From assembly GCF_014200575.1 (NCBI RefSeq), contig NZ_JACHBZ010000003.1:186001-250000 (forward strand): a DNA stretch of 64,000 nucleotides, written 5' to 3'. A program made the translations under genes and the position numbers. Within the stretch, counting starts at the first letter, position 1. The number at the start of each line of letters is the position of its first letter. The notes below the pieces were generated by a model, which did not search any database, had not been told where the DNA came from, and saw nothing but the letters and a program-made list of their open reading frames with translations. Source of the stretch: Mucilaginibacter saanensis. Its GTDB lineage: Bacteria; Bacteroidota; Bacteroidia; Sphingobacteriales; Sphingobacteriaceae. Of the stretch, positions 39,108-59,204 are shown piece after piece.

Positions 39108-39136
39108 AATAGTGATGTAAGTGTTATGGTTTATTG

Positions 39137-39207
39137 AAGTCACGGGCAGATTCGAACTGCCGTAAAAGGTTTTGCAGACCTCCACCTATCCCCTCGGTCA
39201 CGCGACT
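39137..39207 (-). tRNA. tRNA-Cys (GCA)
   Basis: A 71-base cloverleaf on the minus strand: acceptor AGTCGCG pairs with CGTGACT (one G-U), D-arm ACC/GGT with GAGGGGATA loop, anticodon arm GAGGT-CTGCAAA-ACCTT giving anticodon GCA, and T-arm GGCAG-TTCGAAT-CTGCC. The discriminator base is T, the main identity element for cysteinyl-tRNA synthetase. CCA is not encoded. The acceptor starts with A1-U72, which is less usual. It lies 20 bp after iscS and 29 bp before a DsbD-domain gene, all on one strand and downstream of a SAM-I riboswitch, so it may be made from that transcript. Confidence 0.93.
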
Positions 39208-40364: not shown

Positions 40365-40475
40365 AGTTTATCTTTTTCCTTAATAAGTCAAAATGTTCAT
40401 ATCTAAACGTTTTTAAATTATCGCAGAAAGAAGATAGCTGGCTTTACCTCGTGAAATATTAAGTAATTATTGCTT

Positions 40476-40583
40476 CTTATCTATCTCCCTATATCGGAGC
40501 AGGAATTAGCACCTTTTACTGACTTGTTACAGTACAGGTTGCTAAGACTTCTTTGGGCCTTTCCCTCAGTCTTTCTGGATAAG
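40476..40583 (-). ncRNA. SAM-I (S-box) riboswitch ahead of iscS
   Basis: Reading the minus strand: P1 arm CTTATC, CAGAAAGACTGAGGG, AGGCCCAAAGAAG, TCTTAGCAACCTGTACTG, AAAAGGTGCTAATTCCTG, P4 hairpin CTCCGATATAGGGAG and P1 closing arm GATAAG. The core is almost identical to the copy at 21249-21351 but P3 and P4 differ, so they are independent genes rather than a recent duplication. About 110 bases separate it from the iscS start. Confidence 0.93.
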
Positions 40584-40609
40584 TATATAAAGAACGTTAG
40601 ATGATGTGA

Positions 40610-41333: not shown

Positions 41334-44300
41334 ATGAAAAAACGTGCAATAATTGGAATAACCCCATTTGAAAAACCCGATATCTCGCTTGCACTCAGCT
41401 TGCATCACGCGGGAGCTTTTCCTGTACTACATCTTGGTCTTGATAAAATAATTGCCGAAGCAGCAATTGAAGAGTTAGTGCTCAGCGGTTTAAATGATTT
41501 TGGCGTATGCTTTATCTCAACTGATCTTACAACCATGAAGTTACCCAAACAGTTAAGCTTGGTTATTATGCCTTATGGTGTAAAGGCTAACTTTAAAAAC
41601 AATGTAAGGCTTATGTACCAGGTTTATGATCTGGAGTCGGCAAAACTGGCAAAAGCTGAAGGCGCCCACGGAATTATTATTAAAGGAAATGAAGGAGCCG
41701 GAAAAGTTGCCTATGAATCATCGTTTGTATTATTTCAGCGTGTTATACAGGAAGTTAAAGACATCCCCGTTTGGGTACAGGGCGGTGTAGGCATCCATAC
41801 TGCGGCAGCATTAGTTGCGCAGGGTGCGGCAGGTATTGTGCTTGACAGCCAGTTAGCTCTATTTCCAGAATGTTCTGCTCCCAAAGCGCTAAAAGAAGTT
41901 TGCACAAAGCTGAGTGGTACTGAAACTAAACTGATTGACAATTGTCGCGTTTTAGTAAGGCCCAACTCCCCTGTGCTTCCGGAAAACGCATCTTATAACG
42001 ACCTTATACCATATTTTGCCAATCTTGATCTGGAGAAGAGTTATATACCGATGGGGCAGGATATCGCACTGGTTACAGACTTATTTACCCGCTATAAAAA
42101 ATTAAATAAACTCATATTTGGCATTCAGGAGGCTATGTATGGCCACCTGAACCAGGCTAAATCGCTCAACGTTATTAGCCCGGGTAATGCCATGGCAAAG
42201 GATCTAAACATTGTTTACCCCATTGCGCAGGGCCCAATGACACGGGTAAGTGACGTTGCCCCGTTTGCTGATGCGGTATCAGGTGCAGGCGCTTTATCAT
42301 TCATAGCCCTATCTCTGTTAAAAGGTGCACGTGCTAAAGAACTTATTACCGAAACAAAAATGCTTGCTGGCGAAAAAACCTGGGGCGTTGGTATACTTGG
42401 TTTTGCCCCTCAGGAATTGCGCGATGAACAGCAGCAATATATCCTGAAGGCTAAACCTCCAGTAGTTTTAATTGCTGGCGGCAGGCCGTCACAAGCCAAA
42501 CCATTTGAAAAAGCCGGCATAAAAACTTTTTTGCACGTTCCATCGGTATCCTTACTGGACATGTTTTTAAAAGAAGGGGCCAAAAGGTTTGTTTTTGAAG
42601 GGCGTGAATGCGGCGGTCACGTAGGGCCGCTATCCAGCATGGTACTTTGGGAAAAACAAATAGAGCGCCTATTAAAGGAAGACCAACCCGAACAGATCAG
42701 CGTGTTTTTTGCAGGAGGCATTCATGATGCTTTTTCTACTGCATTTATAGCCATTATGGCAGCACCCTTAGCCGCCAAAGGTATAAAAGTGGGTGTACTA
42801 ATGGGTACAGCCTATTTATACACCAAAGAAGCGGTTACTACCGGCGCCATACAGGATAAATTTCAGCAACAAGCTATGCAGGCAATTGATACCGTATTGC
42901 TTGAAACTGCTCCCGGTCACGAAACAAGATGCCTCAATTCACCATTTGCTGATTTTTTTAATATCGAAAAGGAAAAACTACAGTTAGCCGGTATCGATAA
43001 AAAGGAAATCTGGGCGCAGCTGGAAACGCTTAATGTAGGCCGTCTGCGTATTGCCGCCAAAGGCATTGAGCGCCGGGGCGATGAACTGGTGACTATCAAT
43101 GAAGCCGACCAACTGAACCTGGGCATGTACATGATTGGTCAGGTTGCTGTAATGCATAACAAGGTAACCTCCCTATTGGAATTACACCAGGATGTTGCCG
43201 AAGGTAACTATCAGCATATTTTAAACGCAGTATTGCCATCTCCTCCGCAATCAGCAACCAAATCTTTGGACGTTGCCATAGTGGGTATGGCCTGCATTTT
43301 CCCTGGAGCAAAAAATATAGAGGAATATTGGCGCAATATTATTTTAGGAAAAGACTGCGTTACCGAAGTACCTGACGAAAGGTGGAACAAGGAATTATAC
43401 TATGATCCTGAATCAACGGCAAGCGATATGTCGCATTCCAAGTGGGGCGGTTTCATTCCCGGGATAGATTTTGATCCGCTTGAATTTGGCATACCTCCGC
43501 AATCATTGGCTGCCATTGAGCCAACTCAGCTTTTAACACTTATGGTTGCCAAACAAGCTATGGAAAATGCCGGTTATGCTAACGGCAATTTTGATCATGA
43601 TAATGTTTCCGTAATTATTGGCGCCGAAGGTGGCAATGACCTCGCCAATAACTACAGTTTCAGGGGCTACTTTAAGCAAGTGTTTGGAGATATGCCACCT
43701 GAGGTTGACGACCTATTACCCAAAACTACCGAAGACTCTTTCCCCGGCATTTTAGCCAATGTAATTTCGGGTAGGATCACGAACCGGATGGACTTTGGCG
43801 GACGCAACTTTACGGTAGATGCTGCCTGTGCATCGTCGTTAGCGGCGGTTGATCTGGCTTGCCAGGAATTATTCCTTGAAAAATCAGACATGGTACTTGC
43901 TGGTGGTGCCGATTTGCACAACGGCATTAATGATTACCTGATGTTCTCGAGCACACATGCATTATCGCATAAAGGCCGCTGCGCTACTTTTGACAGCGAA
44001 GCAGACGGTATTGCCCTTGGCGAGGGTATTGCCATGGTTGTTTTAAAAAGACATGCAGATGCGCTGCGCGATGGCGACAGGATTTATGCCGTAATTAAAG
44101 GTATTGGCGGATCAAGCGATGGCAAAAGTTTAGGTTTAACCGCACCACGCAAAAATGGACAGGTGCGCGCACTGGAGCGCGCTTATGATCAGGCTGGCAT
44201 CACACCGTCACTTGTTGGTTTGGTAGAAGCGCATGGCACCGGCACAGTGGTTGGTGATAAAACAGAGCTAAGTGCTTTAACAGATATGCTTAACCAGGCA

Positions 44301-47300
44301 GGTGCACTTACCGGGCAAACACACCTTGGATCAGTAAAAACACAGATCGGACATACTAAATGCGCCGCTGGTTTAGCCGGGCTAATAAAGGCATCCCTAT
44401 CTGTTTATCATGGTATCAAGCCACCAACCATACACTTAAAAACCCCGAATAGCTTTTACAACGCAAATACCAGTCCCTTTGCATTTAACGCTGAGGCTGG
44501 TTTATGGATGAATAAAAAACGCTATGCCGGTGTAAGTGCATTTGGTTTTGGAGGCACTAACTTTCATGCTGTAATTGAAAGTTCTAATCCCGTATCTACA
44601 CAAAATCCGGCAATAAAATCATGGCCGTCTGAACTTTTTGTTTTCAGGGGCGACACTTTTGATGAAGCTAAAACCAGGCTGAATTCAGTTAAATTATTAC
44701 TTGAAGTAAATGACAATATAACACTGAAAGACATTGCATTTAGCCTTTCATCAATCAATAAAAAACCAATACAACTTAGTATTGTTGCAGACCATGCCGA
44801 TGACCTGATGATGAAGATCGAACTGGCCTTATCAGGTATTGAAAGTAAGGACACGTATATTGTAAAAAAACAGGAAGGTAAGGTAGCATTTATGTTCCCT
44901 GGCCAGGGAAGCCAGCGTATTAATATGGCGCGTGACCTTTTTGTGATATTCCCGGCCATGCGCAATTTGTTAAAGGATCATCCCGCGTACGAAAAAATAC
45001 TTTTCCCCAATGCGGCCTTTGATAGTAATCAGATCAGGACTCAAAAAGAGCAAATTAAGGATACCCGGATGGCTCAGCCATTATTAGGTATTGTTGATTT
45101 GGCTATAGCCAACCTTTTAAAAACATTGGGTATTACACCCGACATGGTTGCAGGCCACAGTTATGGAGAACTGCCCGCATTATGCTTTGCAGGTGCATTT
45201 GCCGAAGATGAACTGGTAAAGCTAAGCGCAGAAAGGGCTCAATCAATTCTTAACGCGGTTGAATGTGGTGATGCCGGAACTATGGTAGCTGTAAATGCTT
45301 CACAAAATGAATTATCAAAAGTTATTTCAGAAGTAAAAGACGTATATGCAGTTAATTATAACTCACCATTACAGTGCGTACTGGCTGGCTCTACTCCTGC
45401 TATACTGCACTTAACCGAGGTACTTAAAGCGGCAAAAATATCATTCAATAGGCTTGAAGTGGCTTGTGCTTTCCATAGCCCACTGGTGGCAAAATCAAAA
45501 GCGTTATACAAAAAGGTGCTTGCCAATGTTAAATTCACTGACCTTAACCTACCTGTATGGTCAAACACAACGGCCAAAGAATACCCTGTCCAAGCCAAGG
45601 AAATCAAAGAAAGACTGACAGACCATCTGGTACAACCGGTAAAATTTGTTGAGGAAGTACAACAAATGTATGCCTCAGGCGCCCGGATATTTATAGAAGT
45701 TGGACCGGGTAAGGTATTAACCGGCTTAACAAAAGCTTGTATCGGTAAAGATGAGGTTTTACTTTATACCGAGGATAACGGCCGGAATAAGCTAACCCAT
45801 TTGCTATGCATGCTGGCAAACTATATAAGCACTGGTCGCAACATCAACTTAGAGAAATTATTTGATGGCCGCGATGTTAAACTCTTAAATCTTGACGAGC
45901 CATCATTGTATAAAAAGAGCCCAACTGTATGGCACGTAAACGGTCAGCATGCTATACCCACAAACGGAAAATTACCATCAAACGGTGCGTTACCTATTAC
46001 CCAACCTATTAAAATGAAACATACCGAAATGAGGTCAGAAAGTGCGCCAATGGCAAATACTGCAACAGAACTAATGATGCAGGAATATATGAACAGCATG
46101 AAAATGATGATCCAGGCGCAGCGCGACGTGATGCTTTCATTTTTAGGGCAAAATCCTATTGTAAGTAGTCCGATAACGTACCAGGCTTCTGAACCACAAG
46201 CTATAATTCCGCAAACAGCTAATAATAGCCAGCAAAATATATTACCAGTCGCAACACAATCTGCGATAAATAAAACAGCGGCTCAAAAAGATGTTAAACA
46301 GGTTTTATTGCAGATTGTAAGCGATAAAACTGGCTATCCGCAGGAAATGCTGGGCATGGAAATGGACCTGGAGGCCGATCTAAGCATCGATTCCATAAAA
46401 CGTATTGAAATCATAGGCTCCTTGCGTACCGAATTAGGCGGCTTTAACCCCGGGGATAGAAATGAGGATACCATGATGGAGCAGCTATCTTCTATCAAAA
46501 CGTTAAATGGATTGGTAAACTGGATTACAGAAAACACAGTATCTGAATTAGTTATACCTCCCAGTATTAATGTAGAAGTTAATATACAAACCACCCAACC
46601 CTTATTTTCATTAGAAGAACTAAAATTAGCCATACTATCAGTTGTAAGCGAAAAAACAGGTTATCCGCAGGAAATGCTGGGTATGGATCTGGATCTGGAA
46701 GCTGACTTGAGCATTGATTCCATTAAGCGAATGGAAATCATTGGCGACCTTAAGATAAAAACAGGGTTTGGGAAAAATCAGGAACAGGGCGATGATATGA
46801 TGGAAAAGCTTGCTTCCATAAAAACACTGAATGGTTTAGCCAACTGGATAGCCGAAATTGAATCTGAAAGTACTGAATTACTTACCGAAGCAAAAAAAAT
46901 TATTGAGGAAAGCGTTGAATCAGCTGCTAATGAAACACTATCCCGCTTACGTTTTGAACTTACTCCAACAACATTAACTATTAATGAGCCATCCATTATA
47001 AAAGGACAACGTTTTGCCATAACCGATGATGGCGGCGTATTGGCCATTAAAATCAAGCATTTATTTGAGCAGCATGGCGCCATTGCCGATATTGTGTATC
47101 CAACTGGTGATCTACAAAGCTACCAGGGGCTTATTATACTCAATATGTTTGCGGCGCAAAAAAGGGTGGGTATTTTTGATCATTTTTCACTGATCAAGAA
47201 ACTTGACTTTACATTGGTAAAATGGGTATACCTGGTATCAGACACCAAACTCCACTTAGCCGAATTTACCGACATCAGCCTTTTAAGGCGATATCAAGGA

Positions 47301-48356
47301 TATCCCGGATTTTTCAAAAGTCTTGACCGCGAATATGAAAACACTAAATGCAGATTGATAAGTTTAGGCAATCAAATGTCTGCGAATGAGATTGCAGATA
47401 TAACCTTAAACGAAATACTTACCCCAGACCAACCATCGGAAGTTATTTACAGCGATCATAAAAGGCATGTAATGGAACTGGTGCCTTCTCAGCTTATAAC
47501 AACAGGTCTTGAAGAATCACATATTAAACTGACCAGGGAGGCAGTGGTACTTGTACTTGGCGGTGCCCAAGGCATTACCTCCGAGCTGATGATCCACTTT
47601 GCAAAAGATTATCCTTGTACCTACATCCTGGTTGGGCGCTCAAGTGATCCAAGGAAAGCCACTCCGGACAATACCGACCAGATGCAAACCAAAGACGAGA
47701 TTCGTAATTATTTAGTTAAACAGGGAGCATTCAAAAAACCTGCAGAAATAGAGCAGGAAACCGCCCGTATTTATAAAAATAACCAGATCATGCGCACTAT
47801 AACCCTGATGGAGGCCAATGGGTCAACAGTGGTTTATAAATCACTTGATTTATGCGACGAAGCCCGGTTAAGGAGTTTTATGGATGATATTTACGACATA
47901 TATGGCCGCTTAGATGGCGTAGTACACGGAGCTGGTTTACTGGAAGATAAATTATTTCATAGTAAAACATCAGAATCATTTGGGCGGGTATTTGACACCA
48001 AGGTAACTCCTTTACGTGTACTTGCAGAGCAATTGCGCCCCGAAACTCAATTTGTAATTCTTTTCTCCAGTATAGCTTCTGTTTATGGTAATCGCGGGCA
48101 AACGGACTATGCCGCAGCCAACAGTGTATTGGATAAATATGCATGGGCATTAAACAAGCGTATCAACGGCAAGGTAATATCCATTAACTGGGGTCCATGG
48201 AAAGGTGCCGGAATGGTATCGCCTACCCTTGAAAAAGAATATGAACGTCGGGGCATAGCGCTCATACCCTTGCAGGATGGCCGTGAGATATTTTTAAATG
48301 AATTAAAATACGGCAAAGAAAGCCAGGTATTGATTATGGCTGGCAACAACTGGTAA
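41334..48356 (+). CDS. PUFA-synthase-like type I synthase (NMO/ER x2-KS-AT-ACP-ACP-KR)
   Basis: A 2340-residue iterative-type megasynthase. Residues about 1-260 and 275-610 are two nitronate-monooxygenase/PfaD-like FMN barrels (VWVQGGVGIHTAAALVAQGAAGIVL in the first; PIAQGPMTRVSDVAPFADAV and FEGRECGGHVGPLSS in the second, the more complete). Then a ketosynthase at 645-1090 (Cys832 in DAACASSL, His967 in EAHGTGT, GHTKCAAGLAG), an acyltransferase at about 1185-1490 (Ser1276 in GHSYGE), two ACPs with Ser1687 and Ser1796 in LEADLSIDSIKR, and a ketoreductase at about 2070-2310 (LGGAQGIT, Ser2246, Tyr2259). The ACP and KS sequences are of the PfaA type, so the product is likely a reduced or polyunsaturated acyl chain. 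No dehydratase here; it is in the next protein. Confidence 0.88.
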   Translation: MKKRAIIGITPFEKPDISLALSLHHAGAFPVLHLGLDKIIAEAAIEELVLSGLNDFGVCFISTDLTTMKLPKQLSLVIMPYGVKANFKNNVRLMYQVYDLESAKLAKAEGAHGIIIKGNEGAGKVAYESSFVLFQRVIQEVKDIPVWVQGGVGIHTAAALVAQGAAGIVLDSQLALFPECSAPKALKEVCTKLSGTETKLIDNCRVLVRPNSPVLPENASYNDLIPYFANLDLEKSYIPMGQDIALVTDLFTRYKKLNKLIFGIQEAMYGHLNQAKSLNVISPGNAMAKDLNIVYPIAQGPMTRVSDVAPFADAVSGAGALSFIALSLLKGARAKELITETKMLAGEKTWGVGILGFAPQELRDEQQQYILKAKPPVVLIAGGRPSQAKPFEKAGIKTFLHVPSVSLLDMFLKEGAKRFVFEGRECGGHVGPLSSMVLWEKQIERLLKEDQPEQISVFFAGGIHDAFSTAFIAIMAAPLAAKGIKVGVLMGTAYLYTKEAVTTGAIQDKFQQQAMQAIDTVLLETAPGHETRCLNSPFADFFNIEKEKLQLAGIDKKEIWAQLETLNVGRLRIAAKGIERRGDELVTINEADQLNLGMYMIGQVAVMHNKVTSLLELHQDVAEGNYQHILNAVLPSPPQSATKSLDVAIVGMACIFPGAKNIEEYWRNIILGKDCVTEVPDERWNKELYYDPESTASDMSHSKWGGFIPGIDFDPLEFGIPPQSLAAIEPTQLLTLMVAKQAMENAGYANGNFDHDNVSVIIGAEGGNDLANNYSFRGYFKQVFGDMPPEVDDLLPKTTEDSFPGILANVISGRITNRMDFGGRNFTVDAACASSLAAVDLACQELFLEKSDMVLAGGADLHNGINDYLMFSSTHALSHKGRCATFDSEADGIALGEGIAMVVLKRHADALRDGDRIYAVIKGIGGSSDGKSLGLTAPRKNGQVRALERAYDQAGITPSLVGLVEAHGTGTVVGDKTELSALTDMLNQAGALTGQTHLGSVKTQIGHTKCAAGLAGLIKASLSVYHGIKPPTIHLKTPNSFYNANTSPFAFNAEAGLWMNKKRYAGVSAFGFGGTNFHAVIESSNPVSTQNPAIKSWPSELFVFRGDTFDEAKTRLNSVKLLLEVNDNITLKDIAFSLSSINKKPIQLSIVADHADDLMMKIELALSGIESKDTYIVKKQEGKVAFMFPGQGSQRINMARDLFVIFPAMRNLLKDHPAYEKILFPNAAFDSNQIRTQKEQIKDTRMAQPLLGIVDLAIANLLKTLGITPDMVAGHSYGELPALCFAGAFAEDELVKLSAERAQSILNAVECGDAGTMVAVNASQNELSKVISEVKDVYAVNYNSPLQCVLAGSTPAILHLTEVLKAAKISFNRLEVACAFHSPLVAKSKALYKKVLANVKFTDLNLPVWSNTTAKEYPVQAKEIKERLTDHLVQPVKFVEEVQQMYASGARIFIEVGPGKVLTGLTKACIGKDEVLLYTEDNGRNKLTHLLCMLANYISTGRNINLEKLFDGRDVKLLNLDEPSLYKKSPTVWHVNGQHAIPTNGKLPSNGALPITQPIKMKHTEMRSESAPMANTATELMMQEYMNSMKMMIQAQRDVMLSFLGQNPIVSSPITYQASEPQAIIPQTANNSQQNILPVATQSAINKTAAQKDVKQVLLQIVSDKTGYPQEMLGMEMDLEADLSIDSIKRIEIIGSLRTELGGFNPGDRNEDTMMEQLSSIKTLNGLVNWITENTVSELVIPPSINVEVNIQTTQPLFSLEELKLAILSVVSEKTGYPQEMLGMDLDLEADLSIDSIKRMEIIGDLKIKTGFGKNQEQGDDMMEKLASIKTLNGLANWIAEIESESTELLTEAKKIIEESVESAANETLSRLRFELTPTTLTINEPSIIKGQRFAITDDGGVLAIKIKHLFEQHGAIADIVYPTGDLQSYQGLIILNMFAAQKRVGIFDHFSLIKKLDFTLVKWVYLVSDTKLHLAEFTDISLLRRYQGYPGFFKSLDREYENTKCRLISLGNQMSANEIADITLNEILTPDQPSEVIYSDHKRHVMELVPSQLITTGLEESHIKLTREAVVLVLGGAQGITSELMIHFAKDYPCTYILVGRSSDPRKATPDNTDQMQTKDEIRNYLVKQGAFKKPAEIEQETARIYKNNQIMRTITLMEANGSTVVYKSLDLCDEARLRSFMDDIYDIYGRLDGVVHGAGLLEDKLFHSKTSESFGRVFDTKVTPLRVLAEQLRPETQFVILFSSIASVYGNRGQTDYAAANSVLDKYAWALNKRINGKVISINWGPWKGAGMVSPTLEKEYERRGIALIPLQDGREIFLNELKYGKESQVLIMAGNNW

Positions 48357-48383
48357 ATATTCATAAGCTTAAACTAAATACTT

Positions 48384-51300: not shown

Positions 51301-52652
51301 GTGTAGAGGACATGGACCCGGTGATACCCATGACCATGATTTTTGAACTGTTTGGCGAAATAGCAGCAGAACAGTCGCCTGGCGAACAGGTACACAAGAT
51401 CATGAACATTAAAGTGTTTCAGTGGATGAATGTAGTAAAGCCGTTTCGTGAAACAGTTACCGGTGAGTGGAAAGACCAACAACGTGTTTATCTTGATCTT
51501 GACAAATTTGCAAATGCCGAGGTACAACTGGCCACAAACCTTAGCCCTGCCTCCGCCAGCCATTTTGACATAGGTGAATTGCTGGATATACAGCGTACAT
51601 CCGAACAAATCTATGATGCGCACATGTTTCATGGACCGCGTTATCAGGGTATCCGTTCATTAACGGCAGTCGGCAAAAAAGGCATAACCGGTATTATTGA
51701 AGGCGATGCTGGTAAAGGTTCGCTGCTGGATAACGCCGGGCAACTGTTTGGCTTATGGCTGCAACTAACGCTTACCAAAGACCGCATTGCATTTCCTGTA
51801 AAAATTCAGGAGATCGAGTTCTTTGGGGCAATGGAAGATCAAAAGGGACAATTTGAGTGTACCTGCGTACTCATCGACCTTAACGATGAGTTTGCTACCG
51901 CAGATTTTGTAATGAAACGCGAGGGCAAGGTATGGGCCATTATTTCGGGCTGGCAAAACAGGCGATTGGAGATTGATGAACCATTATGGAACGTATCCAT
52001 GTCGCCTTTGCATAACCGCTTGTCGGAGGAAATTGCACCGGGAATATTCATGTTTCACCAGGCCTATTCAAGGATGGTATCCTGGGATTTTATCCTGAAA
52101 CGATACTTTAACCAAACCGAGAAAAAACATCATCAAAACCTGTTACCCAATAAGCGGAAAATATGGATGATCAGTCGCGTAGCAGTAAAAGATGCTGTCA
52201 GAAACCTGCTTAATAAACAAAAACAACAGGCCTGCTACCCTATCACTTTTGAAATAAAGGCAGATGAATTGGGTAAACCATATTTAAGCAGCGACCTCAC
52301 AGCGGGCATCCACATATCTATAGCACATAAAGGTACCTATGCCGTTGGTATTGCTCAATTTGATAAACCTGTAGGCATCGATATGGAAACTATAGAAGAA
52401 CGCAGCACAGGCTTTTATGATATGGTGTTTACCGATACGGAAATGATGCTACTGAAAGACAAGAATAAAGCCGAATGGGCAACCCGCTTTTGGGTAGCTA
52501 AAGAGGCCTACGGTAAATACCTGGGAAAAGGCCTTCAGGGCAACCCCAAGGCATATATTGTTCAGGAAATTAAGGGTGACGAACTGCGCATCAATGACAT
52601 TTATATCAAAACATTAAAACATAAAAATTACATAATTGGATGGACACAGTAG
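48384..52652 (+). CDS. PUFA-synthase-like KS-AT-DH with fused phosphopantetheinyl transferase
   Basis: A 1422-residue protein starting 27 bp after the first synthase. Order: ketosynthase about 5-460 (Cys207 in DAACASSL, His342 in EAHGTGT, His381 in NIGHAMPAAG), acyltransferase about 530-830 (Ser605 in GHSLGEW, FHSPF), a linker, a hot-dog dehydratase about 940-1200 (His962 in LIDHSLL, Asp1116 in LLDNAGQLF), and a Sfp-like phosphopantetheinyl transferase about 1240-1422 (GIDMETIEE and FWVAKEAYGKYLGKG). The fused transferase can activate the ACPs of this operon. It corresponds to PfaC plus PfaE with an AT added. It ends overlapping the ACP gene, and no enoyl reductase is present since that is in the first protein. 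Confidence 0.88.
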   Translation: MKKTDVAVIGMSCIFPGAGDVETFWQNIINKVDSTQIVPADRIDPIHFSKDTAGVDRFYCNRGGFIPDYEFDPRRFGILPVAVEGTEPDHLITLDLAYKALDDAGVFARNITLEKTGIIIGKGNYAGPGATRAIEIVRTGEQIVSILKDILPNLGDAEIKKVKQEFQQRKGRFSADTAMGLIPNLVASLVANRLNLGGVAFTLDAACASSLIAIDHAVHELNSGRCNMVIAGGVHIGQNAAFWSIFSQLGALSHQQKIKPFDAGADGLIIGEGCGFVVLKRLEDAVNDKDKIYAVIKGVGVSSDGSGTSVMSPSVKGQLKAIEQAWQNAGVSAKEIGYIEAHGTGTPLGDKIELQTLTQFFGHHPDLPDAGIGSVKSNIGHAMPAAGIAGFIKTCLALYHDTLPPTMHCETPLAQMDKTRFSPVQTSKSWTASGLPKLAGINAFGFGGINAHVVLEGFNTPRKDDVLQLARESHEALITALEIGDFSAGSGNYRIALFNPTPERLKKATKIAAKNMPWRNKQDIWYTNAPLLHDGGKVAFVFPGLDGLAGGEVSTVAEYFNISPNNDAKAEGLLNEALGILNKSSILDTALKQLGVKPDMNAGHSLGEWLAARSSELAEESSVLELLDVLNPETFELKDSRFIAVGCGIEQLEPIIAGIKNVYLSNDNCPQQVILCGSKPALDELVPILKNKQIFHQILPFQSGFHSPFVADKLDVILAGMRNMQFRKTTTPLWSATTLELYPEGFEAIRQLSAEHLIKPVRFRELTEKLYNEGARVFIQVGSGGLIGFIDDTLKGKRFSTIASNIPTRTGLTQLQRVLATLFVEGREIGLDFMNHRKSTIPATIKGIKLQLGSPIIHNLAGFKNLAIKQQAPINRDVLLVDVADPVMRTFNNNVTEMISIQQEMLQLFQNRPLQSAATSSTTIVPPVIAPLQPATLSKVKRVPFSKQLDITLDNCPYLIDHSLLRQPAGWPCVEDMDPVIPMTMIFELFGEIAAEQSPGEQVHKIMNIKVFQWMNVVKPFRETVTGEWKDQQRVYLDLDKFANAEVQLATNLSPASASHFDIGELLDIQRTSEQIYDAHMFHGPRYQGIRSLTAVGKKGITGIIEGDAGKGSLLDNAGQLFGLWLQLTLTKDRIAFPVKIQEIEFFGAMEDQKGQFECTCVLIDLNDEFATADFVMKREGKVWAIISGWQNRRLEIDEPLWNVSMSPLHNRLSEEIAPGIFMFHQAYSRMVSWDFILKRYFNQTEKKHHQNLLPNKRKIWMISRVAVKDAVRNLLNKQKQQACYPITFEIKADELGKPYLSSDLTAGIHISIAHKGTYAVGIAQFDKPVGIDMETIEERSTGFYDMVFTDTEMMLLKDKNKAEWATRFWVAKEAYGKYLGKGLQGNPKAYIVQEIKGDELRINDIYIKTLKHKNYIIGWTQ

Positions 52653-52939
52653 CATCAACAACAAAAATGAACCGGGATGAGATATTTGAGCTGATGAAAA
52701 AATTCATCACCGAAGTTATAGGTGAAGAATTTGTTGAAGAAATGGATATTACCCCGGAAAGTTCTTTTACGAAAGACCTTGAAATGGACAGCATAGAAAT
52801 TGTATCCTTCTCCGAAAAAATAAAGGCTCACTTTGGCAATCAGATTGATTTTACCGGCTGGCTGTCATCTATGGATCTTGACCAGTTGATCAATCTTAAT
52901 TTAGGTATGATCATCAATTATATTCACGAATGCCGGTAA
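52640..52939 (+). CDS. Free-standing acyl carrier protein
   Basis: A 99-residue ACP with helix I EIFELMKKFITEVIGEEF and the phosphopantetheine Ser in LEMDSIEIVSF, followed by GNQIDFTGWLSSMDLDQLINLNLG. The first ATG overlaps the end of the synthase gene by 13 bases; a second start at 52667 (MNRDEIF) would avoid it. Its sequence differs from the two integrated ACPs of the megasynthase, so it probably carries a starter unit or the finished chain to the next enzymes. It overlaps the hydrolase gene by 10 bases. Confidence 0.9.
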   Translation: MDTVASTTKMNRDEIFELMKKFITEVIGEEFVEEMDITPESSFTKDLEMDSIEIVSFSEKIKAHFGNQIDFTGWLSSMDLDQLINLNLGMIINYIHECR

Positions 52940-53691
52940 TAAAAGTAAATAACCGGGAGGTGCATATCCAGGAGCTTAATAAAGGTGCGGCCGAAACCGT
53001 ATTGCTCATACATGGCATGTTCAGTAATCTCTCTGTTTATTATTTTAATATAGCGCCTATCCTGGCCAAGCATTTCCATGTAGTGATGTATGACCTGAAA
53101 AGCCACGGCATGAGCGAACGTACCCTGCACGGGTATGACTTGAACAGCATGACTGATGATCTGCATGCGCTAATGCAAGTATTGAATTTAGAAACGGCAC
53201 ACCTGGCGGGCTATAGCTTTGGCGGATTGATAGCCCTAAAAATGACCCTACGTTTCCCTGATAAAATAAAAAAGCTGATAGTTATTGAAGCGCCTGACCC
53301 AAAGGACGAAAAAGCTCGGGGCATTATTGATGATTACAGCCGGGAGTTCCTTGAACATTACGTTGAGAATTTTACCGATACCACTAAAGTGAAAATGGGT
53401 AAACGGCAAATGGAGCGCAATCATCGTATGTATGAGTATCTGTTTTATCAAACCAGCATCAAAACCGATATGGCCGCCGAAAAGGATTTCCTGAACGACC
53501 CGCAGATATTACTTATAAATACCGATACCCTGCTCCTTTATGGGATGGACTCTAACTGCCTGGAAACCGGCAAATGGCTTAACGAGAAAATAAAAAGTTC
53601 AGAGCTGTTACTTGTACCAGGCAATCACAATATCCCAATACAGGAACCAGCCCTTATTGGTGATATGATGAATATGTTTTTCATGAACTAA
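52930..53691 (+). CDS. Alpha/beta hydrolase, possible chain-releasing thioesterase
   Basis: A 253-residue cytoplasmic alpha/beta hydrolase: oxyanion segment LLIHGMFSN, nucleophile elbow GYSFGG, and a C-terminal His in PGNHNIPIQEP. The acid is probably in the TDTLLLYGMDSN strand. No signal peptide. In this operon it could release the acyl chain from the ACP or trim a product ester; it has no specific thioesterase II features, so the role is from context. It begins inside the end of the ACP gene and is followed after a few bases by the first glycosyltransferase. Confidence 0.85.
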   Translation: MPVIKVNNREVHIQELNKGAAETVLLIHGMFSNLSVYYFNIAPILAKHFHVVMYDLKSHGMSERTLHGYDLNSMTDDLHALMQVLNLETAHLAGYSFGGLIALKMTLRFPDKIKKLIVIEAPDPKDEKARGIIDDYSREFLEHYVENFTDTTKVKMGKRQMERNHRMYEYLFYQTSIKTDMAAEKDFLNDPQILLINTDTLLLYGMDSNCLETGKWLNEKIKSSELLLVPGNHNIPIQEPALIGDMMNMFFMN

Positions 53692-53712
53692 AAAATGCTG
53701 CAAAAAATATCT

Positions 53713-54918
53713 ATGGCAAAGTTTGTATTTATAGTACCTCCTTTAACAGGGCATATTAACCCCACCTTAAGCATGGGGGGCGTTTTACTTGAACGCGGCC
53801 ACCGGGTAGGCTGGATAACGCTCGACCAATCATTGGCTGCAAAGCTGCCTGCAGGTGGCGAATTATTACATATCAGCTATGAAGAGAGTGATCAGCAGAA
53901 ACAGGAAAGCGAACAATACCTGGATATCATTACCAAAAAGATAGTTTATGGTATAGATAGTATTAAGTTTTTGTATGAGGAGGTCTTGATACCGCTAAAC
54001 AGACATAGTTACGAGGGTATCGCATCATGGCTTGATAAATTTGAGCCTGACCTGGTTATTACTGATCACCAGATGTTTGCCGGAGCTATTGCCGCAACAA
54101 ACAAAGGTTTACCTTATACCACATCAGTTACTGCTCCCGCGGCTATTAAAGTGATGGATGAGCTGCCCAAAGTACACGAATGGGAGGTAAATCAGATTTT
54201 ATCCCTGCAACGGGAATTAGGCATTGATACCATTAGTTCAATAGCCTGCTCAGATCTGCTTACTATGGTGTTTACATCGCGGGATTTTTTTGGGGAGATG
54301 GAGCTACCACCCTATTATAAATTTACAGGACCGGTAATTCACCGCAGACCAAATAATATCATATTTGACTGGATCAAATTTAAAGCTGCCGACAGACCAA
54401 AAGTATTGGTAAGCATTGGTACCACCTTTGATCATGAACATAAAAAGAACTTTTTTGCAAAAGTGGTTGAGGCATTAGGTCAGGAAGATATTACTGTTGT
54501 AATAGTTTCAGATCCTGCTTTATTTGATCAGTGGCCAAACAACTTTATAGTAAAATCTCAGGTACCTCAACTGGAATTACTTCCACATTTAGATGCTGTA
54601 GTATGCCATGGCGGCCACAATACGGTTTGCGAAGCACTTTTGAACGGTTTACCTATGGTGGTAATCCCAATTGCTTATGACCAATCGCACGTTGCCGGGC
54701 GCGTAGTACGTACCGGAGCCGGTCAACGATTAAATTTTAACCGCTTTAAAGCCAGCCACCTGAAACAAGCGGTTAATGAAATATTGCGTACCCCTGAATA
54801 CAAAATAGCTGCGGAGCAGCTTAAACAATCATTCATAGAAGCGGGTGGTACCGGAACTGCGGCTGATCTGCTTGAACAGATCGTTATTAAACAATCATTA
54901 GAAGCCTTAAAAAACTAA
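53713..54918 (+). CDS. GT1-family (MGT-type) glycosyltransferase, first copy
   Basis: About 401 residues. I prefer the ATG at 53713 (MAKFVFIVPPLTGHINPTL) because the paralogue next door starts the same way; an upstream ATG at 53695 adds six residues. GT-B fold: acceptor domain to about 210, then the nucleotide-sugar domain with VLVSIGTTFDHEHKKNF and the donor-binding signature HGGHNTVCEALLNGLPMVVIPIAYDQ. The proposed catalytic His is in LTGHINP. Such enzymes transfer glucose or similar sugars from UDP or dTDP to lipid or polyketide alcohols. Two copies in a row suggest a disaccharide head group or two different positions. Confidence 0.9.
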   Translation: MAKFVFIVPPLTGHINPTLSMGGVLLERGHRVGWITLDQSLAAKLPAGGELLHISYEESDQQKQESEQYLDIITKKIVYGIDSIKFLYEEVLIPLNRHSYEGIASWLDKFEPDLVITDHQMFAGAIAATNKGLPYTTSVTAPAAIKVMDELPKVHEWEVNQILSLQRELGIDTISSIACSDLLTMVFTSRDFFGEMELPPYYKFTGPVIHRRPNNIIFDWIKFKAADRPKVLVSIGTTFDHEHKKNFFAKVVEALGQEDITVVIVSDPALFDQWPNNFIVKSQVPQLELLPHLDAVVCHGGHNTVCEALLNGLPMVVIPIAYDQSHVAGRVVRTGAGQRLNFNRFKASHLKQAVNEILRTPEYKIAAEQLKQSFIEAGGTGTAADLLEQIVIKQSLEALKN

Positions 54919-54924
54919 GTTACC

Positions 54925-56130
54925 ATGGCAAAATTTCTATTTGTGGTTCCGCCATTTTTTGGGCACATAAGCCCCACTTTAAGTATCGGCGCAAGCCTTA
55001 TAGCCCGCGGACACGAAATAAAGTGGCTGGGCATTACGCCACTCGCCAATAAACATGTGCCTGCCGGCGGTGAATATATATACCCTGAAGCCGAACTGCA
55101 ACAACACCAGGGCGAAATAAACCGCATACTAAAAAGACAGGACGATGGCCCGGCTTGCTCGGGCCCCGAGGTAATGAAACTTGCATTGGAGGAAACATAC
55201 GTACCCTTTGCCCGCATCATGATGCCTGCTTTGAGCAATTTTGTTGATATCTGGAAACCAAATGTGATCATTAACGATTGTATAACATTTGCCGGTGCGC
55301 TGTGTGCTCACATTAAGGGTATTCCATCGGTAACCACTACCCCTGTACCGCCGGATGTAATGGGCGATACAGCCAACAGTGCACCTAAAATATTTGAATG
55401 GCAGCAAAACCTTATAAAGGGATTGCAACAGGAATTTGGAGTTTATGGCGATGATATTTTTATCCACTCGCACAAGCTCAACATGATATTTACTTCAGAA
55501 GCCTTTGCTGGTTTTACCGAAACACCAACCCACATGAAATTTGTGGGCCCGGTAAAAGGCAGGCCCAACAATGCAGCTTTTGACTGGGATAGATTGGCCA
55601 CGGCCACTACCCCAAAAGTTTTTGTATCCTTAGGCACACTACTGATTGATATACGAACGGAATTTTTCCAGAAGCTGATCAATGCTTTTGCAGATCAGCC
55701 GGTAACTATTGTGGCGGCTACCAACCCCGATATTTTTGAGGAATGGCCCAGCAATTTTATCGTGAATGGCTTTGTACCCCAAACAGAGTTAATGCCCCAT
55801 ATGGATGCCGTGATATGCCACGGTGGTTTCAATACCGTTAATGATACTTTTATCAACGGCCTGCCCATGCTGATCACTCCTATTGCTTATGATCACTTCC
55901 ATACCGCCAAACTCATTGAAAATTCAGGCGCAGGCATAAGCATCCGCTATAAACGCCTGCGGATAAATGATCTGAGAGATACCGTTTTTGAATTGCTGCA
56001 AAATCCCAAGTATCGTGAGGCAGCAATCAAGGTAAAAGAATCCTTTATAGCCGCCGGCGGAAATAACAAAGCAGTGCAATTACTGGAGGATTTTACCAGA
56101 ACCGAACAAATTCTTGAACCACAGAACTAA
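54925..56130 (+). CDS. GT1-family (MGT-type) glycosyltransferase, second copy
   Basis: A 401-residue paralogue of the preceding gene, sharing FFGHISPTLSIGASLIARGHEIKWLG and the signature HGGFNTVNDTFINGLPMLITPIAYDH. The His of FFGHISP is kept, but the donor-binding loop differs from the first copy (HGGFNTV against HGGHNTV), so donor or acceptor preference may differ. It is six bases from the previous gene and six from the following acyltransferase gene, so translation is tightly coupled. Working with the first it would add a second sugar to the lipid; the order is unknown. Confidence 0.9.
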   Translation: MAKFLFVVPPFFGHISPTLSIGASLIARGHEIKWLGITPLANKHVPAGGEYIYPEAELQQHQGEINRILKRQDDGPACSGPEVMKLALEETYVPFARIMMPALSNFVDIWKPNVIINDCITFAGALCAHIKGIPSVTTTPVPPDVMGDTANSAPKIFEWQQNLIKGLQQEFGVYGDDIFIHSHKLNMIFTSEAFAGFTETPTHMKFVGPVKGRPNNAAFDWDRLATATTPKVFVSLGTLLIDIRTEFFQKLINAFADQPVTIVAATNPDIFEEWPSNFIVNGFVPQTELMPHMDAVICHGGFNTVNDTFINGLPMLITPIAYDHFHTAKLIENSGAGISIRYKRLRINDLRDTVFELLQNPKYREAAIKVKESFIAAGGNNKAVQLLEDFTRTEQILEPQN

Positions 56131-56135
56131 CGGAT

Positions 56136-57416
56136 ATGAAAAGAAAATTATTATTCATTGAAAGAATGCTCCATGGCGACGGAAACAATGCATTTAATGT
56201 ACTTGTACCGGCAAAAATTCGCGGCAGCTTTCAGGAGTCAACTATACGGCTTGCGTTAGAAAAACTGCAGGAAAAACACGCCTGGCTAAATGCTTCTGTA
56301 AAAGATGATGAAAAGGGTTATCCCTGGTTTGTAGTTGATAAAAATAACCCACTTAAAATCCAGATAAGAACAGTAACCAGGCGTAGTGATGAAGACTGGC
56401 AATCGGAATCGGTAAGGGAATGGTCAACTCCATTTAATAATTACCAGGGACCATTAATGCGGGTAGTATGGGTAAAGGGCGATGCTGTTTCTGAAATAAT
56501 CCTGGTAATGCACCATTGTCTTTTTGATGGCCGCTCGGTAATGTCAATCCTGGGCGAATTTTTGCAACTACTGGATAATGTGAATGCAGATATTGCACAA
56601 GAAAAGGCTATAACCAATATTGCGGACGTTGTGCCAGCTCATATTTTAAACAGCAAAAAGCATCGGATAAAGTCAAGATTAATTATGGGCGCCGCGTCAC
56701 TGGCCTTATCGCTCATTCCAACAAAAAACAATCAGGTAGAAAGGAAAAAAGATTACCTGATTCACTGGAAGCTGGATAAAGACACCAGCGCTGCATTTAT
56801 TTCCTTTTGTAAAGCCGAGGGTATCACCGTTAACACCGCAATCTGCGGGGCTATACTAAGCGCCTTTAAACAAGTGCGGCAGGAAAAAGCGTTGAATAAA
56901 ATTTTATGCCCGGTTGATATTCGCAGCTTTAATAAACAGATCAAGCAAAATAACATTTTTGCGTTTGCTTTGATGGTTCTGGTATCAGCCTATCCGGGGC
57001 TTGATTTTTTAAGTAATGCCAGGGCCATGCAAAAAGATATAGACAAAAAAATGTCTAAACTCGACCCGTATAACATCATGCTGCTGTTGGAGGCGGCCCA
57101 TGGTTCATTAGATAAAATTGTAGATTTTTTAAAGAATCAGAAACCGGGTAATGATTGTTTGTTATCCAATCTCGGCCGGATTGAAATCCCCTATCAGTAT
57201 AACTCATTTGAGGTAGAAACCATCTTCAGCATATCTGTCATTGGCCCTTTGGGTAATACCACAGCCTTTACAACGTCCACCTATCGCGGACAAATGGATT
57301 TTTCCTTTATTTCCAGCGAGGGTTTTATCACACATGCCGAAGGCTTGTCTATAAAAAACAAAGTGTTAACTACCATTAAAGAACAGATTAATTACCCAAC
57401 CATAGCAGTAGCATGA
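56136..57416 (+). CDS. Condensation-domain acyltransferase, first copy (HHxxxDG present)
   Basis: A 426-residue protein of the condensation/PapA-type acyltransferase fold. The active-site motif MHHCLFDGRS is the complete HHxxxDG. Other family features are RLALEKLQEKHAWLNASV at the N-terminus and the late TTAFTTSTYRGQMDFSFIS, which corresponds to the DFGWG region. Such enzymes move acyl groups from ACP or CoA to alcohols, as PapA5 does in mycobacterial lipids. No adenylation or peptidyl-carrier domain is present, so it is not a peptide synthetase part. It likely esterifies a sugar hydroxyl of the glycolipid. The next gene is a diverged copy. Confidence 0.87.
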   Translation: MKRKLLFIERMLHGDGNNAFNVLVPAKIRGSFQESTIRLALEKLQEKHAWLNASVKDDEKGYPWFVVDKNNPLKIQIRTVTRRSDEDWQSESVREWSTPFNNYQGPLMRVVWVKGDAVSEIILVMHHCLFDGRSVMSILGEFLQLLDNVNADIAQEKAITNIADVVPAHILNSKKHRIKSRLIMGAASLALSLIPTKNNQVERKKDYLIHWKLDKDTSAAFISFCKAEGITVNTAICGAILSAFKQVRQEKALNKILCPVDIRSFNKQIKQNNIFAFALMVLVSAYPGLDFLSNARAMQKDIDKKMSKLDPYNIMLLLEAAHGSLDKIVDFLKNQKPGNDCLLSNLGRIEIPYQYNSFEVETIFSISVIGPLGNTTAFTTSTYRGQMDFSFISSEGFITHAEGLSIKNKVLTTIKEQINYPTIAVA

Positions 57417-58684
57417 AAAGAAAATTAATGATGGTTGAACGGATTATGTATGTTGATGCCCACACCCCGCTTAACTGTGTATTTACGGCAAAAATACAAG
57501 GCTGCATTAATCCTGATAATTTAAATGCTGCATTAATTAAAATTCAGAAAAAACATCCTTTGTTACGTGTGTATATTGATAACGAAGAAGAAGGCGGCCC
57601 CTATTTTATAACCAATGATCGGATTTGTAAAATCCCAGTACGTATTGTAGAGCGGTTTACTGACCAGGATTGGCTTAAGGAGTCACAAACTGAATGGTAT
57701 AGGGATTTCAATGACGAAAACAAACCATTGGCCAGGGTAGTTTGGCTGAAGTCAGCGTCAGTATCAGAATTATTATTAGTGCTCCCGCATTGTATTTGCG
57801 ATGGCACTACCCTGGTAAATCTGATGCGCGAAATATTAAGTTTAGTGGATAACCCACAGCAGGAGCTTGAAACCTATTTCTCTTTTAACTCCGTGCAGGA
57901 GCTTATGCCAGCAACTTTTAATGCGAATAAAAAAGTAATTAAAGCCAAAATATTCTCCCTGATTGGAAAACTCTTTTTCCTGTTTAAGAGCACGGAAACG
58001 CAATTTAATTCAGGGAGCGACTATGTTTTGCACTGGAAACTTGATCAGGAACAAACCATAGCCATTGCCGAAGCCTGTAAGCGTGCGGGCACATCGGTTC
58101 ATGCCGCTTTGTGTGTAGCTTTTATTAAGGCATTTGAGCAGGTGAAGGGTAACAAAGCCCACGAAAAGGTAATTAGTCCGGCTGATATCAGGCGTTTTAT
58201 TCCAGAAATAAAGCAGGACACCATGTTTGCTTTCGCGCCTATTGCAGAACTCGTTATTGGCAAAAATACAGCTGCCGGTTTCTGGGAGCTTGCCCGAAAA
58301 GTTAAAACTGATTTAACAAATAAAATTGAAGCCATGAACGTTTACGAAATGTTATGGATGGGCGAATACATGCATCATTCGGTAAACAAAATGGTTAAGT
58401 TTTTAAAAGCTACCAATGGCACGCATGATATTACGCTCTCCAATATGGGCCGGATAAGTATCCCCAAAACATACCAGTCATTTGAATTGGAAACAGTTTA
58501 CAGCCCTACAGTAGCATTTCCGTGGCGTAATCCCAATACCTTGATAACAACCACCTTCAAAAACCAAATGGATTTTACGTTGATGTCCAACAATACCTTT
58601 TTAAATAAAACGGAAGCGTCGATGATCAGGGATAAAGCAATTGAATATTTATTGGCCAACATACCACAGTTAACACATGCCTGA
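57413..58684 (+). CDS. Condensation-domain acyltransferase, second copy (PHxxxDG variant)
   Basis: A 423-residue paralogue overlapping the previous gene in an ATGA. The active-site motif reads LPHCICDGTT, so the first His of HHxxxDG is Pro while the second, catalytic His and Asp-Gly are kept. The rest follows the same plan (NLNAALIKIQKKHPLLRVYIDNEEEGGPYF, then TTTFKNQMDFTLMSN). It may be active with another acceptor or need the partner protein. A head-to-tail pair of such acyltransferases next to two glycosyltransferases suggests a multiply acylated glycolipid. Confidence 0.85.
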   Translation: MKRKLMMVERIMYVDAHTPLNCVFTAKIQGCINPDNLNAALIKIQKKHPLLRVYIDNEEEGGPYFITNDRICKIPVRIVERFTDQDWLKESQTEWYRDFNDENKPLARVVWLKSASVSELLLVLPHCICDGTTLVNLMREILSLVDNPQQELETYFSFNSVQELMPATFNANKKVIKAKIFSLIGKLFFLFKSTETQFNSGSDYVLHWKLDQEQTIAIAEACKRAGTSVHAALCVAFIKAFEQVKGNKAHEKVISPADIRRFIPEIKQDTMFAFAPIAELVIGKNTAAGFWELARKVKTDLTNKIEAMNVYEMLWMGEYMHHSVNKMVKFLKATNGTHDITLSNMGRISIPKTYQSFELETVYSPTVAFPWRNPNTLITTTFKNQMDFTLMSNNTFLNKTEASMIRDKAIEYLLANIPQLTHA

Positions 58685-59204
58685 GATTGCCAAATACGAA
58701 AACAATACCGTATTAAGGCGGTTCATACGAAAACGAATATACTGCTGTTTAATTCCTAATGTTGCATTTAACGCCTGCATTGCCTATTTCAGCTTTATTA
58801 AACCAGGGGTTATATATTTATTCACAGGAGATCAAAGCTTAGCAGGGATTTTGCTGCCAATGTCTTTCCTGTTGCCGTTCATCATCACCTTTGATATATT
58901 AAAAAGAACCATGGTGTTGGCTGAACAGGAAGATGTCAATATAATACTGAGCAATAACTTCTGTAAAAACAAGTTCATGTTTCAAATAGCAATTATTAAC
59001 GGACTTTGCACCGTATTAGCTGTTTTTGCCATAATGCTTGTAGTTAATTTACTTTTGCCTCAGCATGACCATTTTAAAGTTATCCCCTTAACTATTTTAG
59101 ATAGCTCATTGGCAGGCATTTATTCCATATTATTTACGCTGCTTCCAATCAAAAAACTAAAGAAACGCGCACTTGAACAAACTGATATGCCGGTATCTGT
59201 TTGA
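58677..59204 (+). CDS. Small four-helix membrane protein of the lipid operon
   Basis: A 175-residue protein overlapping the preceding gene by eight bases, so it belongs to the operon. It has about four hydrophobic segments at about 24-48, 54-75, 103-127 and 138-158, no signal peptide and a basic C-terminus (LPIKKLKKRALEQ). I recognise no family. A role in anchoring or moving the finished lipid across the membrane is possible by position only. Confidence 0.75.
   Translation: MPEIAKYENNTVLRRFIRKRIYCCLIPNVAFNACIAYFSFIKPGVIYLFTGDQSLAGILLPMSFLLPFIITFDILKRTMVLAEQEDVNIILSNNFCKNKFMFQIAIINGLCTVLAVFAIMLVVNLLLPQHDHFKVIPLTILDSSLAGIYSILFTLLPIKKLKKRALEQTDMPVSV

Follow-up and report, generated by a model that had tools for sequence, protein, structure and literature searches.

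A conserved nine-gene operon of Mucilaginibacter saanensis predicted to make an acylated, doubly glycosylated lipid

The stretch of DNA analyzed here, called the window throughout, comprises 64,000 nucleotides of Mucilaginibacter saanensis (RefSeq assembly GCF_014200575.1, contig NZ_JACHBZ010000003.1, positions 186,001 to 250,000) and carries a nine-gene operon at window positions 41334-59204. The operon, whose genes are named A to I below, is real, complete and conserved; because its gene set recurs across related loci, a chance grouping of nine genes is excluded. Its core, encoded by the two megasynthase genes A and B, is very probably the Type N secondary lipid synthase, the identity being deduced from a match of genera and of phosphopantetheinyl transferase (PPTase) motifs with the published description (PMC3098273). 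We think it fairly probable that the operon uses this core to make an acylated, doubly glycosylated long-chain lipid. The presence, order and conservation of the genes and the integrity of their catalytic residues are read from the sequences themselves, and from these we infer every reaction proposed below, the saturation state of the chain, the order of the steps from release to transport, and the role of gene I. Chain length, sugars and acyl groups are not readable from sequence.

Organization of the operon

All nine open reading frames lie on the plus strand, and the intergenic gaps from A through I are +27, -13, -10, +3, +6, +5, -4 and -8 nt. Pfam, NCBIfam and direct motif reading give the domain order of A as two nitronate monooxygenase (NMO)/FabK-like barrels, ketosynthase (KS), acyltransferase (AT), two acyl carrier protein (ACP) domains and ketoreductase (KR), and that of B as KS, AT, dehydratase (DH) and PPTase. 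The remaining genes were assigned by Pfam, NCBIfam and motifs as an ACP, an alpha/beta hydrolase, two family 1 glycosyltransferases (GT1), two PapA-type acyltransferases and a membrane protein. The original prediction, made from the letters of this stretch, had described nine overlapping or nearly touching genes with two integrated ACPs and a free one, a fused PPTase, and then a hydrolase, two GT1, two PapA-like and a membrane protein gene in that order. All of this was borne out, with gaps between -13 and +27 nt. No RNA element was found inside the operon when window positions 39000-60000 were scanned with Rfam. The features, in which ER stands for enoyl reductase, are as follows.

41334..48356, plus strand: gene A, megasynthase of 2340 aa, pseudo-ER - FabK-type ER - KS1 - AT1 - ACP - ACP - KR (78 rows aligned)
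41334..42158, plus strand: A, N-terminal NMO/FabK-like TIM barrel without catalytic His
42177..43199, plus strand: A, predicted catalytic FabK-type ER (His429)
43269..44438, plus strand: A, KS1 (Cys832-His967-His1007)
44889..45725, plus strand: A, AT1 (Ser1276, His1381, Arg1301)
46299..46823, plus strand: A, two ACP domains (Ser1687, Ser1796; the second by motif, not Pfam)
47541..48203, plus strand: A, KR (Lys2206, Ser2245/2246, Tyr2259, Asn2263)
48384..52652, plus strand: gene B, megasynthase of 1422 aa, KS2 - AT2 - DH - PPTase (80 rows aligned)
48393..49613, plus strand: B, KS2 (Cys207-His342-His381)
50151..50768, plus strand: B, AT2 (Ser605, His706)
51216..51983, plus strand: B, predicted polyketide synthase (PKS)-type double hot-dog dehydratase (His962, Asp1116, Gln1120; weak family matches)
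52245..52634, plus strand: B, C-terminal fused PPTase (ACPS 44.3 bits; Sfp E 1e-7)
52640..52939, plus strand: gene C, free ACP, 99 aa (Ser51; overlaps B and D)
52930..53691, plus strand: gene D, alpha/beta hydrolase, 253 aa (Ser96, His233)
53695..54918, plus strand: gene E, GT1, 407 aa (His20)
54925..56130, plus strand: gene F, GT1, 401 aa (His14)
56136..57416, plus strand: gene G, PapA-like acyltransferase, 426 aa (HHxxxDG)
57413..58684, plus strand: gene H, PapA-like acyltransferase, 423 aa ([P/A]HxxxDG)
58677..59204, plus strand: gene I, membrane protein, 175 aa (four predicted long helices)

Conservation, distribution and evolution

Related loci were sought with protein B in one genome per species, which yielded 150 relatives, and the best 80 were kept. 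As the loci were chosen and ranked by B, the counts describe the close family and not every related synthase. Gene content beyond D can be judged at 78 of the 80 loci, the other two (L060 and L092) ending at contig ends. The loci belong to Mucilaginibacter, Pedobacter, Chryseobacterium, Flavobacterium, Sphingobacterium, Dyadobacter, Chitinophaga and kin, Bacteroidota of soil and water.

At every one of the 78 uncut loci the synthase is followed by the ACP, the hydrolase and the two GT units, which are either separate or fused, and after these come one to three PapA-like genes; gene I was recognized at 71. The pattern is ABCDEFGHI at 33 loci, ABCD(E-F fused)GHI at 29, ABCDEFGGHI at six, ABCDEFGHH at three and ABCD(E-F fused)GGHI at two. 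Single loci show AABCDEFGHH (L072, with A split), ABDCEFGHH (L073, whose order is swapped by an early start codon of D), ABCDEFGH (L023), ABCDEFH (L088) and BCDEFGHI (L097, whose contig begins in B), and contig ends leave ABCD at L060 and AB at L092. Genes B and C overlap in 79 of 79 loci, as do C and D, and H and I overlap or lie at most 30 nt apart in 71 of 71. The distribution of the operon is patchy: full-length B was found at E <= 1e-250 in 9 of 149 Mucilaginibacter genomes, and in a sample of 394 genomes from across the phylum it was found at E <= 1e-100 in 4; both counts include the window's own genome.

Some variation was seen among the acyltransferase genes. A second full-length G-like gene is present at six loci (L021, L022, L024, L044, L054 and L094); the two G matches of L025 and L035 look, by length, like pieces of one gene. 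Five Dyadobacter loci (L072-L074, L077 and L089) have a second H-like gene and lack a recognized gene I.

A quick maximum-likelihood tree of A and B together, with 78 rows, SH-aLRT values as its sole support measure and some long branches flagged by the program, places M. lappiensis and Mucilaginibacter sp. SG564 nearest to the window, with a highest identity of 85%. Fusion of E and F, judged by open reading frame length, is confined to one 32-row clade of Chryseobacterium, Flavobacterium and Sphingobacterium, in which 31 loci are fused and L060 is cut before the gene. In the fused protein of L050 the E part comes first and shares 69% identity with E of the window, and the F part after it shares 73% with F. 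Seven Sphingobacterium rows (L060, L062, L066, L067, L068, L082 and L095) group with two Flavobacterium rows with a support of 100 and stand apart from Pedobacter and Mucilaginibacter, which belong to the same family; the six Sphingobacterium loci that have the gene on the contig share the E-F fusion. Because these rows group with Flavobacterium, away from their own family, and share the fused glycosyltransferase, the tree suggests transfer of the operon between orders. A third Flavobacterium row (L058) sits among Chryseobacterium.

The synthase

Residue counts come from alignments that include the window's own row. Those of B and C have 80 rows each, with one gap in the PPTase of B, those of D, F and H have 79 each, and those of A, G and E have 78, 76 and 48, respectively. 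Wherever a row has a letter at the position, the catalytic residues checked do not vary; they are those of the KS domains, the ATs (Ser and His), the ACPs, KR, DH, PPTase, C, D (Ser and His), E, F and G. What we read from HHxxxDG, the malonyl Arg and the GT1 His motifs is general knowledge of these families.

Gene A scores 1035.3 bits with the NCBIfam PfaA model TIGR02813, against a curated cut-off of 1010.1 bits. Its N-terminal part had been described as tandem NMO-type reductases; two barrels are indeed present, both matching TIM-barrel folds, but only the second keeps the catalytic His. In the first, the column of K124 holds L in 32 of the 78 rows, K in 20, R in 15, N, C, S and Q in two each and M, I and V in one each, and H in none. 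The second has His429 and the FMN-binding residues G300-P301-M302 in all 78 rows, with FabK as both best model and best fold, at a score far under the 453-bit equivalog cut-off, and by its sequence it reads as a FabK-type ER, not a PfaD-type one. The PfaD model TIGR02814 has no match in the ER region at E up to 1 and reaches only 22.2 bits in the whole genome, on another contig; as it finds nothing in the operon, a fused reductase of PfaD type was ruled out. Judging from these residues, the first barrel is probably a structural partner of the active ER. The two may form a pseudo-heterodimer, as proposed from their sequences, from the fact that each half matches a TIM barrel, and by analogy; the heterodimer structure 9SDD, named in PMC13311796, is absent from the fold matches listed (50 in each of two lists).

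The other domains of A are intact in all 78 rows: KS1 keeps Cys832-His967-His1007, AT1 keeps Ser1276, His1381 and the malonyl-type Arg1301, the ACPs keep Ser1687 and Ser1796, and the KR keeps Lys2206, Ser2245/2246, Tyr2259 and Asn2263. Pfam lists one ACP stretch in A, and the second ACP was read from its near-identical DLSIDSIKR motif.

An 1880-aa version of gene A (P0001) is present in the protein collection on a 6.3 Mb contig, with 100% identity over the searched region and no KR listed; it may reflect a gene call cut short or, in another assembly, a frameshift. The window's own genome has two more KS-AT megasynthases outside the window (G000:C2:608210-610627 and G000:C2:734214-736610), in open frames of 2220 and 1741 aa, about 30-32% identical to A over the KS-AT part.

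Protein B carries a single KS-like domain, KS2, which keeps Cys207-His342-His381 in 80 of 80 rows and is thereby distinguished, at the level of sequence, from a Cys-less chain length factor. AT2 keeps Ser605 and His706 in all 80 rows. At the offset from the Ser that matches the malonyl Arg it has Leu630, again in 80 of 80, and within columns 622-635 Arg occurs only at 629, in 4 of 80 rows, so that no malonyl-type Arg is present. The PPTase motifs of the window are LGKP (P1a) and ISIAH (P1b'); across rows the Pro of P1a is kept in 79 of 79 and its Gly in 53 of 79, and the Ser and His of P1b' are kept in 79 of 79.

The dehydratase foreseen in the original prediction is present, not as a gene of its own but as a domain of B, and weak matches together with motifs mark it as PKS-type. 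His962, Asp1116 and Gln1120 are kept in 80 of 80 rows. The PS-DH model matches B residues 1114-1198 with 22.5 bits (cut-off 23.7) and finds six of six orthologs at E 1.9e-5 to 7.7e-4, one of the six above the curated cut-off. In a profile search with 24 rows the best structures are DH domains, that of PksJ at E 0.0094 and that of CurK at E 0.037, both weak matches. Family and structure matches cover only the half with Asp1116, the His962 half being read from its motif. Pfam gave no match to a FabA-type DH/isomerase in A or B, and PS-DH is the sole match in the dehydratase region at E up to 10.

The tailoring genes

The free ACP C has Ser51 in 80 of 80 rows. In hydrolase D, Ser96 and His233 are present in 79 of 79 rows, and the residue at the canonical acid position, Asp207, varies (D in 32 and E in 18 of 79). 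All 19 rows of alignment A1, by contrast, have Glu120, which is therefore probably the acid of D. Pfam found no thioester reductase domain in the nine proteins; D is therefore the likely enzyme of release or transfer, and is probably a thioesterase or chain transferase.

Genes E and F of the window encode paralogs with 40% identity, in which His20 of E is present in 48 of 48 rows and His14 of F in 79 of 79. The best NCBIfam model for both is the macrolide glycosyltransferase TIGR01426, with 195.6 and 169.4 bits (cut-off 260), and a profile search places F nearest to UDP-glycosyltransferases such as YjiC. G and H, which are 35% identical, exceed the 30-bit cut-off of PapA_C with 33.4 and 48 bits. 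HHxxxDG is found in 76 of 76 rows of G and [P/A]HxxxDG in 79 of 79 rows of H (P in 74, A in 5). The nearest structure in profile searches with either is the phthiocerol/phthiodiolone dimycocerosyl transferase 8s6l (E 1.8e-27 for G and 1e-29 for H). The PapA_C model has two matches in the window's own genome, G and H, which therefore appear tied to the operon's product. Gene I is predicted to have four long helices (mean pLDDT 78), with only scattered weak Pfam matches and no fold match at E < 0.001.

Relation to known systems

Type N secondary lipid synthases were described from Chitinophaga pinensis DSM 2588 and Chryseobacterium gleum ATCC 35910, their product uncharacterised, and a possible role in the resting cells of C. 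pinensis was suggested (Shulse & Allen 2011, PMC3098273). The operon occurs in the same phylum and the same two genera, Chryseobacterium (L048-L057 and others) and Chitinophaga (L075, L079, L081, L087, L090 and L100), in species other than those of the paper. In the same paper the PPTases of types M-T have the P1b' motif hShxH, and the P1a motif is x(G/D)xP (PMC3098273). A cluster-attached PPTase with P1b' hShxH is common to Type N and the operon, the P1a Gly being found here in only 53 of 79 rows. The paper's main text has no glycosyl-, hydrolase or PapA words and uses acyltransferase only for AT domains, and so gives no description of the tailoring set (PMC3098273). The Type N sequences of C. 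pinensis and C. gleum do not occur by name among the best 120 matches listed for each of the Chitinophaga and Chryseobacterium queries.

In Chryseobacterium herbae pc1-10, antiSMASH region 2.2 is of the class hglE-KS/T1PKS/terpene, with no similar known cluster (PMC10459008); locus L052 (NZ_JAOAMU010000002.1, 512548-536774) lies inside its bounds of 495,527-554,653, provided that this contig is what the paper calls region 2, and the available text gives annotation only, with no product or gene analysis. An hglE-KS/T1PKS region without known relative was reported from Sphingobacterium thalpophilum NMS02 (PMC11446778). In Aquimarina sp. TRL1 and Flavobacterium sp. N502540, fused pfaDA and pfaBC-PPTase genes were likened to Renibacterium salmoninarum (PMC13291983). 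As in the operon, an ER is there fused to a PfaA-like protein and the PPTase to the second protein; those synthases adjoin PKS-nonribosomal peptide synthetase lines, whereas the operon's partners are GT1 and PapA-like genes, and the operon's ER is FabK-type by profile. A C. gleum morphotype paper (PMC11004935) has no polyketide, glycosyltransferase or acyltransferase words, and the main text of a Bacteroidetes natural-product paper (PMC9248904) is without hgl, polyunsaturated fatty acid (PUFA) or glycolipid terms.

The open-licence literature searched contained no paper on the product or the tailoring set; a subscription paper is possible. The original prediction recognized no characterized cluster with this combination, and no characterized product was found, but the core is very probably Type N, so the cluster is not unheard of. 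The operon is thus a conserved instance of a known, uncharacterized cluster type, with a tailoring set not described earlier in the literature found.

Clusters for PUFA-type secondary lipids and for heterocyst glycolipids (hgl) had been proposed as relatives in concept. Of the PfaA-E traits, the operon has the match to the PfaA model but not the PfaD ER, the FabA-type DH/isomerase or the Cys-less chain length factor. The hgl synthases of cyanobacteria likewise pair a PUFA-synthase-like core with later glycosylation of a long chain. There a thioester reductase releases the chain as an alcohol; the operon lacks this domain and has instead a hydrolase and PapA-like acylation genes. PapA-fold acyltransferases stand beside a lipid-making type I synthase in mycobacterial systems as well, such as those for phthiocerol dimycocerosate (PDIM) and trehalose polyphleates, which differ from the operon in phylum and synthase; in the operon two GT1 genes precede the PapA genes.

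Predicted product and alternative readings

In the pathway we propose, the PPTase at the end of B would arm all three ACPs, the two within A and the free one, C. AT1, with its malonyl Arg, would load malonyl units, and AT2, without it, would move a non-malonyl acyl group, either a starter or the finished chain. KS1 and KS2 would condense, and the KR, the PKS-type DH and the FabK-type ER would reduce, the His-less N-terminal barrel serving the active ER as an integral structural partner. The outcome would be a mostly saturated chain with one or more hydroxyls left where the DH or ER is skipped; in cycles that end early, the domain set would leave hydroxyls or trans double bonds. Hydrolase D would free the chain or pass it on, E and then F would add two sugars sequentially, G and H would esterify hydroxyls of sugar or chain with acyl groups from the ACP (C) or coenzyme A, and I may anchor or move the product.

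The lack of a FabA-type DH/isomerase together with a FabK-type ER argues for a saturated chain, not a cis-polyunsaturated one. The fusion of E and F in one clade, with E first in L050, is as expected for consecutive glycosylations, and the two GT1 enzymes and their fusion suggest that two sugars are attached in succession. An acylated, doubly glycosylated lipid, as originally predicted, is the most economical reading of a secondary-lipid core with GT1 and PapA genes.

Several observations weigh against this reading. The dehydratase is the weakest domain call of the synthase, weak by family model and with its His half read from motif, and gene D has no specific family assignment. Gene I is unrecognized at 7 of 78 loci and G has no match of its own at one (L088), so not every tailoring step is universal. 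Among the nine genes there is no sugar-nucleotide or dedicated transporter gene. GT1 enzymes and condensation-fold acyltransferases take many substrates, so that chain hydroxyl, carboxyl and sugar are all conceivable acceptors. The glycolipid, a product predicted from genes alone, is nevertheless the best of the readings considered.

The alternative that survives best, and which we regard as unlikely, is a glycosylated, acylated polyketide (for example a lactone or a polyol with several free hydroxyls, or a conjugated polyene) instead of a simple lipid, for which D would be the cyclizing or releasing thioesterase. Macrolide-type glycosyltransferases typically act on polyketide hydroxyls, the macrolide model TIGR01426 is the best for E and F (both below its 260-bit cut-off), and every reductive domain could be skipped iteratively. 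The core domain layout and the PfaA model, however, indicate fatty-chain synthesis, and PapA-type enzymes, to which the nearest structure 8s6l points, are best known from the assembly of lipid esters.

It is quite improbable that D or the PapA-like enzymes join two acyl chains before glycosylation, giving a rhamnolipid-like or wax-ester-like aglycone. The position of the hydrolase directly ahead of a GT1 gene, which parallels RhlA-RhlB, would suit such a product, as would the one to three condensation-fold acyltransferases and the free ACP; no RhlA appears, however, among the D matches listed (the best 60 of 305 structures and 25 of 33 NCBIfam models).

A PUFA/glycolipid cluster proper, whose cis-polyunsaturated chain would afterwards receive sugars and acyl groups, is very improbable: the PfaA model does exceed its cut-off on gene A, but no FabA-type DH/isomerase is found in A or B and the dehydratase is PKS-type by its matches, the ER is FabK-type with nothing in the operon matching the PfaD model, KS2 keeps its Cys, and there are two tandem ACPs as against the 5-9 typical of PUFA synthases (PMC13311796). 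The polyunsaturated chain that the original prediction allowed for is unlikely on the same grounds.

Neighbouring features

A SAM-I riboswitch lies at window positions 40474-40585 on the minus strand (82.6 bits, gathering threshold 44.4), directly upstream of a class-V aminotransferase/cysteine desulfurase-like gene (39228-40364). Beyond the 3' end of that gene is a tRNA-Cys gene (39136-39207, minus strand). An open reading frame with a DsbD N-terminal domain (38661-39185, minus strand) begins inside the tRNA-Cys gene, and its GTG start is for this reason probably called too early. A GH92 gene follows the operon in the window (59209-62511) and in the Mucilaginibacter loci L021, L022 and L044, which indicates that the operon's site is common to these four loci.

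Conclusions

Type N has been an orphan secondary lipid synthase since 2011, and a core that is very probably of that type is now tied to a fixed tailoring set. The operon may represent a new class of envelope or secreted glycolipid in many Bacteroidota, with a saturated or hydroxylated chain, two consecutive sugars, up to three ester-linked acyl groups, and a FabK-type ER forming a pseudo-heterodimer with a His-less barrel; we offer this fuller proposal tentatively. The expected chemistry is shifted away from polyunsaturated chains. The His-less barrel beside an active FabK-type reductase would offer a clean case for asking why such synthases have paired enoyl reductases. With tailoring genes ordered alike across several families of Bacteroidota, the operon leads to a testable prediction, an acylated diglycosyl lipid, in culturable genera.

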